DNA from: Citreicoccus inhibens
GTDB taxonomy: Bacteria > Myxococcota > Myxococcia > Myxococcales > Myxococcaceae
Assembly (NCBI RefSeq): GCF_019039035.1
Contig: NZ_JAHNZT010000001.1
Coordinates: 522,049 to 586,048 of the forward strand
Direction: 5' to 3'
DNA length: 64,000 bases
Shown: in pieces, positions 8,472 to 11,632 of the stretch
Layout: each line of letters starts with the position of its first letter
Position numbering within the stretch: the first letter of the stretch is position 1
Notes under the pieces: model-generated
The model's input: the letters and a program-made list of their open reading frames with translations, nothing else
Told to the model about the DNA's origin: nothing
Database searches by the model: none
Translations under genes and position numbers: made by a program

Positions 8472-9788
8472 TCAGTAGAGCTTGCGCAGACGCGCGGCGA
8501 AGAATCCATCGAATCCCTCGGGGCCGGGCAGGGTCCGCAGCCACGCCTGGGCCAGCGGCAGCTTGAGCCCTGGGAGCACCGGCGGCTCCGCCGTCCACTC
8601 CGGATGGCTGCGCAGGAACATGTCCACCTGGTCCTGCCCCTCCTGCGGCTCGGGGGTGCACACCGCGTACACGAGCAGGCCCCCGGGAGGCACCGCCTCC
8701 TGGCAGTTCTCCAGGATGCGACGCTGGAGGGTGGCCAGCCGCGCCACGTCCGACTCCTGCCGGCGGTAGCGCAGCTCCGGGTGACGGCGCAGCGTGCCCA
8801 GACCCGAGCACGGCGCGTCCACCATCACCGCGTCGAACGTGCCCCACGCTTCGGGGAACGGCTCGGAGGCGTCGTGCGCGTGGGCCTTCAGGCGCGACAA
8901 GAGGCCCAGGCGCTTCGCCTCGGACTCAATCTTGCGCAGCTTGTGGGCGTGCAGGTCCACCGCCACCACGTCGTGGGACTCGGCCTGATGACAGGCCTTG
9001 CCCCCGGGCGCCGCGCACGCGTCCAGCACGCGGGCGGACTCGGGGAGGGCGCCATAGACGCCCACGAGCTGCGCGGCCTCGTCCTGCACCTGCCAGAGGC
9101 CCTCCGCGTAGCCATACACGTCCTCGATGCGGCCCACGGGCGGCAGCACGATGCCCACGGGGGACATGTCCGTGGCGCGCGCCTCCACGCCCTGTTCGCG
9201 AATCTGGGCCAGCAGCGCGTCGCGGGTCACCTTGGAGGTGTTGGCGCGCACCACCACCGCGGGGGCCTGATTGTCGGCCACCAGCATGGCCTCGGCGCGC
9301 TCACGGCCGAACTGCCGCACCCAGCGCTCCACCAGCCAGCGCGGGTGGCTCTCGCGCACGGACAGGTACTGCACGGGGTCCGACTGGGACGGCAGGGGCG
9401 CGGAGGGCAGCTCCGCCAGCTTGCGGAGGATGGCGTTGGTGAAGCCCGCCGCGCGTGAGAGGCCCACGTCCTTGAGGGCCTGCACCGTCTCCGCCACCGC
9501 CGCGCGCGCGGGCACGCGGGTGTGGAAGAGCTGGTAGGCCCCCACGCGCAGGGCCGCGAGGACCTTGTCCTCCAGCGCGTCCAGCTTGCGGTCCGCGAAG
9601 CGCGCGATGGCGTAGTCCAGCGCCATCTGCCGGCGCGTGGTGCCGTAGCACAGCTCCGTCGCGAGGGCGGCGTCGCGCGGGTCCTTGGGCGGCGACTCGG
9701 ACAGCAGCGTGTCCAGCACCACGTTGAGGTACGCGTCCGTCGCGCGCACGCGCGCGAGCACCGAGATCGCCAGGGTGCGTGCGTTCAT
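8472..9788 (-). CDS. rsmB: 16S rRNA m5C967 methyltransferase RsmB
   Basis: 438 aa, full length. An N-terminal NusB-like RNA-binding domain covers ~1-140. The SAM-binding site is 'ACAAPGGK', with 'VVAVDLHAHKL' after it. The two catalytic cysteines of m5C methyltransferases are present: C327 in 'DAPCSGLG' and C377 in 'YAVCTPEP'. The enzyme methylates C967 of 16S rRNA. It is the last gene of the fmt cluster; its ATG overlaps the stop of the AroQ-like gene (ATGA), so translation is coupled. fmt next to rsmB (sun) is a common bacterial arrangement, but here another gene sits between them. Confidence 0.93.
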   Translation of the reverse strand: MNARTLAISVLARVRATDAYLNVVLDTLLSESPPKDPRDAALATELCYGTTRRQMALDYAIARFADRKLDALEDKVLAALRVGAYQLFHTRVPARAAVAETVQALKDVGLSRAAGFTNAILRKLAELPSAPLPSQSDPVQYLSVRESHPRWLVERWVRQFGRERAEAMLVADNQAPAVVVRANTSKVTRDALLAQIREQGVEARATDMSPVGIVLPPVGRIEDVYGYAEGLWQVQDEAAQLVGVYGALPESARVLDACAAPGGKACHQAESHDVVAVDLHAHKLRKIESEAKRLGLLSRLKAHAHDASEPFPEAWGTFDAVMVDAPCSGLGTLRRHPELRYRRQESDVARLATLQRRILENCQEAVPPGGLLVYAVCTPEPQEGQDQVDMFLRSHPEWTAEPPVLPGLKLPLAQAWLRTLPGPEGFDGFFAARLRKLY

Positions 9789-10663
9789 CCTTCTTCCAGC
9801 CGGGTCATCAGGTCCACGAGTTGCTCATCCCTCAGGCGCGTCGCCGCAATCGTAGAGAGGGTGAGGCTCTGAAGAACGTCCTCCAGCAGCTCGCGGTGGC
9901 CACTCTCGGCGGGGGCGCCGCGCTGGAGCTGTTGATACTGCGTCCGCGCCCAGGTGGCCAGCTCCGCGGCACTCAGCATGCCCGACAGCCGGTCGGCGAT
10001 CTTCCGGCGCACCTCTGCTCGGGTCAGGAAGCCCGGCGGCACCTCGGCGCCCTTCCCCCCGCGCCCGAGCGTCTTGCCCGCCCGGGGCCCCACCGGAGCG
10101 CTCTCCGTGGCGGCCTTACGGCCCAGCGTCTTGCCCTTCGCCACGTCGGCGGGATGGGCCGGCGGGGCCTTGGTCCCCGTGGCGCCCGCCTTGCGGCCCA
10201 GCGTCTTGCCCGAGGGAGCAGCGGCGGCCTCGTCCGTCGCGCCCGTCGGGGTGAAGACGCCGCTCGCGAACGTCTCCAAGGCCTGGAGGTAGGGCTCGAA
10301 GCCGCGCGAGCCCTCGACCACCATCGCGCACGCCTCGGCGACCACGGACTCGCGCGCCGGGGGCTTGAGCTGCACCGCGATGGCGGGCACGCCCACCAGC
10401 TCCAGCGCCTCCTTCAGCGGATAGGAGCCCACGAGGCTCGTGGGGTTGATGACGATGCCCGCCACGGCCTGGCGCTCGGCGTGGAGCGTGTCGAGCAGCA
10501 CGCCCTCGTGGTTCGACTGGACGACCTTCAGCGTCTGGCCCAGCGCCCGGGCCTTCTCGCGCAGCGCCGCCTCCAGGTCCGACAGCCGTCCCCCCGCCAC
10601 GTCCTCCCGCTCGCCCTGGAGGGGGAGGTTCGGCCCGAGCAACACCAGCAAGGTCATCGCCAT
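9785..10663 (-). CDS. AroQ-fold pseudoenzyme with GKTLGR repeats
   Basis: 292 aa from ATG 10663, chosen because GAGGAG lies 10 bases upstream; ATG 10684 is an alternative. Residues ~4-135 align with type II 3-dehydroquinate dehydratase ('LLGPNL', 'KVVQSNHEG', 'VINPTSL', 'GFEPYLQAL'). Catalytic residues are lost: the Tyr of the lid is Ala (~23), the His after the fifth strand is Gln (~98) and its Glu neighbour is Ala; the structural Asn12 and Asn73 remain. A linker then carries three spaced motifs GKTLGRK, GKTLGRK and GKTLGRG (near 152, 177, 196), followed by a helical C-terminal domain. It is therefore unlikely to make 3-dehydroshikimate. It lies between fmt and rsmB, so a role linked to translation or RNA is possible. 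Automated annotation would probably call it aroQ. Confidence 0.8.
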   Translation of the reverse strand: MAMTLLVLLGPNLPLQGEREDVAGGRLSDLEAALREKARALGQTLKVVQSNHEGVLLDTLHAERQAVAGIVINPTSLVGSYPLKEALELVGVPAIAVQLKPPARESVVAEACAMVVEGSRGFEPYLQALETFASGVFTPTGATDEAAAAPSGKTLGRKAGATGTKAPPAHPADVAKGKTLGRKAATESAPVGPRAGKTLGRGGKGAEVPPGFLTRAEVRRKIADRLSGMLSAAELATWARTQYQQLQRGAPAESGHRELLEDVLQSLTLSTIAATRLRDEQLVDLMTRLEEG

Positions 10664-10696: not shown

Positions 10697-11632
10697 TCAC
10701 GGCCCGAACGGCTGAGTGCCCGGCGCCAGCTTGTGCCCGGACAGGAAGTCCGCCGCGCCCATCGCCCGCTTGCCTTCGAGTTGCAGCTCCAGCAGCACGA
10801 GCGAGCCCTCCGAGGTCGCCACCTCCACCCCACCCGGCCCCGCCGCCAGCACCGTGCCGGGAGCGCCCTGCCCCGCGCCCACCTTCACGCGGTGCACCTT
10901 GAGCACCTTGCCGCCCAGCGTGGTGAAGGCCCCCGGCCACGGCGTGAAGGCGCGCAGCCGCCGCTCCAGCACCACGGCGGGGCGGGTGAAGTCCAGCTTC
11001 CCCTCCTCCTTGTCGATGAGGGGCGCCAGCACCATGCCCTCCGAGGGCTGGGGCACGGGCTTCAGCTCGCCTCGGAGGTACGCGGGCAGCGCCTCGCGCA
11101 GCAGGTCTCCGCCCAGCCGGGACAGCGTCGTGTGCAGCGTGGCGCTCGTCTCGTCCGGCGCGATGGGCTGCCGCTTCACGGCCAGCACCGGCCCGGTGTC
11201 CAGCCCCTCGTCCATCACCATCAGCGCCACGCCCGTCTCGGCGTCGCCATGGGCCACGGCCCACTGGATGGGCGCGGCGCCCCGGAAGCGCGGCAGGAGC
11301 GACGCGTGCACGTTGACGCAGCCGCGCGTGGGCAAATCCAGCACGTCCTTGGGCAGGATGCGGCCGTACGCCGTCACCACGCAGATGTCCGGCGCGTAGG
11401 GGCGCAGCGTCTCGACGAACGGCGGCGTGCGCAGCTTGGTGGGCTGGAGCACCGGGACGCCGCGAGACAGCGCCAGCTCCTTCACCGGCGGCGCCGTCAC
11501 CGCGTTGCCGCGGCCCTTGGGCTTGTCCGGCTGCGTGACGACCGCCACCACGTCACCCAACTCGAAGCAGGCCTCGAGCGACGCCACGGCGAACTGCGGC
11601 GTGCCCATGAAGATGATGCGGGGTCGACTCAT
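10697..11632 (-). CDS. fmt: methionyl-tRNA formyltransferase
   Basis: 311 aa, normal length. It transfers a formyl group from 10-formyl-THF to Met-tRNA(fMet) for translation initiation. The N-terminal formyltransferase domain has catalytic N107, H109 ('NVHASLLPRFRGAAPIQ') and D145 ('DEGLDTGPV'), and the early 'FMGTPQFA' motif. The C-terminal OB-like tRNA-binding domain starts near residue 205. Downstream on the same strand come the AroQ-like gene and rsmB; upstream, 31 bases away, is a HAMP-like membrane protein. No def gene is next to it. Confidence 0.96.
   Translation of the reverse strand: MSRPRIIFMGTPQFAVASLEACFELGDVVAVVTQPDKPKGRGNAVTAPPVKELALSRGVPVLQPTKLRTPPFVETLRPYAPDICVVTAYGRILPKDVLDLPTRGCVNVHASLLPRFRGAAPIQWAVAHGDAETGVALMVMDEGLDTGPVLAVKRQPIAPDETSATLHTTLSRLGGDLLREALPAYLRGELKPVPQPSEGMVLAPLIDKEEGKLDFTRPAVVLERRLRAFTPWPGAFTTLGGKVLKVHRVKVGAGQGAPGTVLAAGPGGVEVATSEGSLVLLELQLEGKRAMGAADFLSGHKLAPGTQPFGP

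Follow-up and report, generated by a model that had tools for sequence, protein, structure and literature searches.

A probable pseudoenzyme derived from type II dehydroquinase, with a motif-bearing linker and a helical C-terminal domain, is conserved between fmt and rsmB in myxobacteria

The gene that lies between fmt and rsmB in the window (by which we mean the whole 64,000 nucleotide stretch of Citreicoccus inhibens DNA analyzed here) is likely to encode a conserved pseudoenzyme with a docking or scaffold role, perhaps one linked to translation. By descent the protein belongs to the AroQ superfamily, without the catalytic features that define AroQ; docking, oligomerization, loss of activity, and the link to translation are what we infer for it. 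The label 3-dehydroquinate dehydratase, as returned by a plain homology search, hides a conserved core gene; "aroQ" is in our opinion a misannotation, and one that also supplies the wrong gene for a step of the shikimate pathway. The dehydroquinase step of that pathway is usually considered a drug target. A literature search on this pseudoenzyme found no paper. The features discussed below are located in Table 1.

Table 1. Positions in the window of the putative pseudoenzyme gene, its operon partners, and the parts of its product.
Feature	Position	Strand	Basis
Whole CDS: AroQ-derived putative pseudoenzyme, linker, and C-terminal domain (292 aa)	9785..10663	-	ORF, ribosome-binding site, 28-orthologue alignment
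AroQ-fold core without equivalents of Tyr24, His81, Glu99, His101, and Arg112	10256..10657	-	PF01220, residue table against 21 canonical AroQs, Foldseek
Disordered linker	10031..10255	-	pLDDT ~40; dN/dS 0.94 in own-genus pair
GKTLGR motif 1 (residues 152-157)	10193..10210	-	sequence, motif scan
GKTLGR motif 2 (residues 177-182)	10118..10135	-	sequence, motif scan
GKTLGR motif 3 (residues 196-201)	10061..10078	-	sequence, motif scan
C-terminal four-helix domain (~80 aa) with invariant WAR motif	9788..10030	-	alignment, model, copy-number survey; no Pfam family above cut-off
fmt, methionyl-tRNA formyltransferase; operon partner upstream of the pseudoenzyme gene	10697..11632	-	named from its own sequence
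rsmB/sun, 16S rRNA m5C methyltransferase; operon partner downstream of the pseudoenzyme gene	8472..9788	-	named from its own sequence
ATGA, pseudoenzyme stop codon overlapping the rsmB start codon	9785..9788	-	ATGA in 17 of 28 orthologues

The type II dehydroquinase fold originally predicted for the first half of the protein is borne out both by sequence and by structure: PF01220 matches residues 6-133 (E 2.3e-21; 76.4 bits against a cut-off of 23.3), and the AlphaFold2 model, confident in the core, resembles solved type II dehydroquinases (TMt ~0.8 by Foldseek). The NCBIfam equivalog TIGR01088 gives 61.9 bits, under its cut-off of 169.85, and the PRK05395 subfamilies are every one under cut-off, so that no NCBIfam aroQ threshold is reached by the window protein. 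We compared its active site with those of 21 canonical AroQs taken from its own order and of 30 orthologues of the window protein. All 21 canonical AroQs retain Tyr24, His81, Glu99, His101, Arg108, and Arg112. In the window protein, i) Tyr24 is replaced by Ala/Gly within a shortened lid; ii) His81 has become Val/Gly, Glu99 Ala, and His101 Gln; iii) the segment containing Arg112 is deleted in the alignment with the 21 canonical AroQs; and iv) the substrate-contact residues Asn12, Arg19, Asn75, and Arg108 are all four retained. The alignment with canonical AroQs restores neither the lid Tyr, which had been read as Ala, nor the catalytic His, which had been read as Gln. The third substitution first described, Glu to Ala, stands for the window protein but not as a trait of the group: it is confined to the source organism's own genus, and the other orthologues checked retain Glu99.

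Alanine at N12, R19, Y24, N75, E99, H101, or R108 nearly abolishes the activity of Corynebacterium glutamicum AroQ (PMC10772564), and of these seven residues Y24, E99, and H101 are gone in the window protein; in the type II mechanism, Tyr24 serves as tyrosinate to provide the general base, and His101 is the proton donor (PMC6011038). From the missing catalytic residues, taken together with these mutant and mechanistic data, we infer with high confidence that the window protein has lost dehydratase activity. Active sites among the orthologues range by degrees from near-intact to fully degenerate, and the series would offer a good natural example of an enzyme changing into a binding protein. The lid Tyr24 is missing from the window protein and from all 30 orthologues, and His101 is retained in 9 of the 30; two orthologues (L023 and L024) retain all the catalytic residues checked but the lid Tyr, their Ser103 being Thr as it also is in some of the canonical sequences. 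The series is consistent with loss of the lid first and of the other catalytic residues later, and to judge by their residues L023, L024, and the forms that keep His101 could have some residual activity.

The orthologues are a coherent group. A single branch (support 91/97) parts them from the canonical AroQs, and nearly all sequenced genomes of the source organism's family, a family of social soil bacteria, contain one copy of the pseudoenzyme gene. Of 195 Myxococcota genomes, 91 have the C-terminal domain, each as a single copy, and all 91 belong to three families of one order. Between two genomes of the own genus, dN/dS is 0.09 in the core, 0.94 in the linker, and 0.10 in the C-terminal domain; in four other close pairs it is 0.06-0.13 in the tail and 0.10-0.39 in the core. 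As expected of a conserved pseudoenzyme, the catalytic residues are gone, yet core and tail are under purifying selection in the own-genus pair.

The open reading frame is genuine: it begins with an ATG at 10663, has a GAGGAG ribosome-binding site 10 nt 5′ of this ATG, and occupies the middle position in an fmt-X-rsmB operon. The overlap between its stop codon and the start codon of rsmB reads GTGA in 2 of the 28 orthologues in addition to the ATGA forms counted in Table 1. The pseudoenzyme gene adjoins fmt in 26 of 30 orthologue loci and rsmB in 29 of 30, fmt is found beside canonical aroQ in none of 21 loci, and the fmt-X-rsmB order recurs in named Corallococcus, Myxococcus, and Hyalangium genomes. 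Compared with type II AroQ, then, the window protein has the same fold, belongs to the same sequence family (PF01220), and keeps Asn12, Arg19, Asn75, and Arg108, but it differs in the extra linker and helical domain, in the lack of Tyr24, His81, Glu99, His101, and Arg112, and in its fmt-rsmB operon, since the canonical aroQ of several relatives lies in an aroB neighborhood. That the gene shares an operon with these two neighbors may be a matter of co-expression alone. In two relatives from another family (L013 and L006, in genomes G040 and G046) we observed the order aroK, aroB, canonical aroQ, a terC-like gene, and rsmB; the aroQ-terC-rsmB part of this order is possibly a trace of an ancestral position of aroQ near rsmB.

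The linker contains the three GKTLGR motifs and the disorder that had been described for it, and the expectation that such motifs would recur in orthologues holds for every one of 28 linkers. Specifically, all 28 alignable full-length orthologues carry K[TS][LIM]G motifs, 1-4 per linker and 73 in total, whereas shuffled linkers gave 0.29 on average and 4 at most. Apart from the motifs, the linkers of the orthologues do not align, and all three GKTLGR motifs are identical in the own-genus pair despite the linker dN/dS of 0.94. Persistence of the motif array in an otherwise freely drifting linker strengthens the case for docking. A scan of the own genome with the KTLGR pattern gave 28 matches against 13 in the reversed control and no second protein with a motif cluster; thus no partner sharing the motif was found there. 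The same motifs could instead be contact sites for a Hanks-type kinase or for rRNA rather than protein docking motifs: the second position is usually Thr or Ser, the motifs have a basic character, and the adjoining rsmB acts on rRNA. We think this unlikely, and the additional, degenerate copies in the same linkers, where Ala or Pro replaces Thr (KALGK, KPLGK, KALAR), argue against strict phosphorylation. Two further observations concern the linkers: a second, weaker repeat, [KR][AS]LAR, stands alongside KTLGR in L029, L030, L034, L038, L039, and L145, perhaps as degenerate copies; and L030, L036, and L050 have long acidic tracts.

Beyond the linker, the new helical domain of the original prediction is recovered as a confident four-helix model (pLDDT ~95 in the full-length model, 88 when modeled alone) that is matched by no domain library. 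No paralogue of the domain was detected in the own genome, where the next best match had E 0.47, and a search of the PDB by sequence gave no match. The effector-associated domain EAD2 (PF19956) does not match the window protein; it matches the tails of a few orthologues weakly (best E 6.8e-4), the best of them, L047, at 20.3 bits, under the cut-off of 23.8. By structure, the domain resembles colicin D immunity protein (1v74_B) with a TM of 0.56-0.60, a Foldseek probability of 0.47, and E 3.0. EAD2 and colicin D immunity protein are small all-helical docking domains, as the C-terminal domain may be, and we treat the resemblance of the tail to both as a lead only. Two new candidate interaction modules, the KTLGR array and the WAR domain, come out of this analysis.

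The docking or scaffold protein we favor probably arose when a duplicated type II dehydroquinase lost its tyrosine lid and then further catalytic residues; sitting between fmt and rsmB, the duplicate would have acquired a disordered linker with K[TS][LI]GR motifs and a new four-helix domain. Type II dehydroquinases are dodecamers built from trimers, and the AroQ fold of the window protein is probably still an oligomeric platform, one that would present many copies of the motifs and of the helical domain. The protein would then serve as a multivalent adaptor or scaffold, and the fmt-rsmB operon makes translation or ribosome maturation the most likely place to look for its partner. A fully specified version, which we put forward tentatively and would not call probable, is an undescribed, order-specific multivalent scaffold: dozens of KTLGR motifs would be exposed on an oligomeric core of dead AroQ, the four-helix WAR domain of the protein itself or of a partner would bind them, and the assembly would organize translation or 30S maturation in its fmt/RsmB branch.

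A ligand sensor is conceivable by analogy, since the fungal quinate repressor QUTR derives from shikimate enzymes and provides a precedent in principle: the degenerate pocket would bind dehydroquinate or a similar acid, and linker and tail would relay the signal to a partner. The four substrate contacts kept by the window protein, and the purifying selection on its core, would fit such a sensor. Among the orthologues, however, many have lost Arg19 or cannot be aligned there, several have Ser or Cys in place of Asn75, Arg108 is frequently missing, and every lid is reduced. As a group they therefore do not conserve the pocket for binding, and we regard a sensor as quite improbable.

It is very doubtful that the protein is still an active dehydroquinase, one that works through other residues and fills the pathway step. 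The own genome has aroA, aroB, aroC, aroK, and an AroE domain, and the window protein is its sole Pfam-detectable dehydroquinase, Pfam searches of this genome having returned no other PF01220 match and no PF01487 match. Against such activity stand the loss of the general base Tyr and of His81, Glu99, His101, and Arg112; the failure to reach any NCBIfam aroQ cut-off; the presence of a canonical AroQ alongside the pseudoenzyme in G007, G021, G027, G028, G029, and G036; and a divergent AroD-AroE fusion carried by the aro cluster. Whether the genome has a second, intact aroQ or aroD thus receives a divided answer: there is no other AroQ and no AroD that Pfam can detect, but there is this putative fusion, on account of which we reject the notion that the own genome is without any dehydroquinase.

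The fusion is a 417-aa ORF outside the window (L060:10552-11805, C22 of the own genome) in a cluster ordered aroA, aroB, aroC, AroDE, aroK. Its second half is AroE; its first half aligns with type I dehydroquinase at an hhalign probability of 96.8%, and His99 and Lys124, invariant in 23 sequences, coincide in position with the catalytic His and Lys dyad of type I enzymes. With PF01487 the AroD half scores E 0.21, far under the Pfam cut-off, and a search of the PDB by sequence with the profile of this half matched no type I structure; the putative assignment to AroD is made by profile comparison and catalytic residues, not by Pfam cut-offs. We found the fusion in 31 of 36 family genomes; of the five others, G007, G021, and G027 have a canonical AroQ, and G010 and G011 are also without a detected aroB. 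The dehydroquinase step is probably carried out by the divergent AroD-AroE fusion, which would be the family's true dehydroquinase, missed by Pfam.

Plant DHQ-SDH (PDB 2gpt) has the same domain order as the fusion, and the match between them spans the domain junction, but the plant enzyme differs from the myxobacterial fusion in that the AroD half of the latter is so far below the Pfam cut-off. In Candida albicans Aro1, the type I dehydroquinase domain is dead by active-site substitutions and the non-homologous type II enzyme Dqd1 compensates (PMC9074039). The myxobacterial arrangement looks like the mirror image, with the type II protein apparently dead and a type I AroD-AroE fusion that appears to compensate, although in the myxobacteria the apparently dead domain stands as a protein of its own, equipped with a motif linker.

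A functionless product of gene decay or of faulty annotation, to which the stepwise loss of catalytic residues and the little-constrained linker sequence might seem to point, retains practically no probability and is refuted by selection and distribution, with an own-genus dN/dS of ~0.1 in core and tail, motifs in every orthologue, long open frames for the pseudoenzyme in the orthologue loci, and a single copy throughout nearly the whole family.

Two other arrangements were seen among relatives. In L018, L020, and L022 (genomes G007, G027, and G021, respectively), a canonical aroB-aroQ pair occurs together with the pseudoenzyme and without an AroDE fusion. In a related family, an AroD-AroE-AroK triple fusion is encoded by a minus strand ORF at 139-2196 of L053 (G042).
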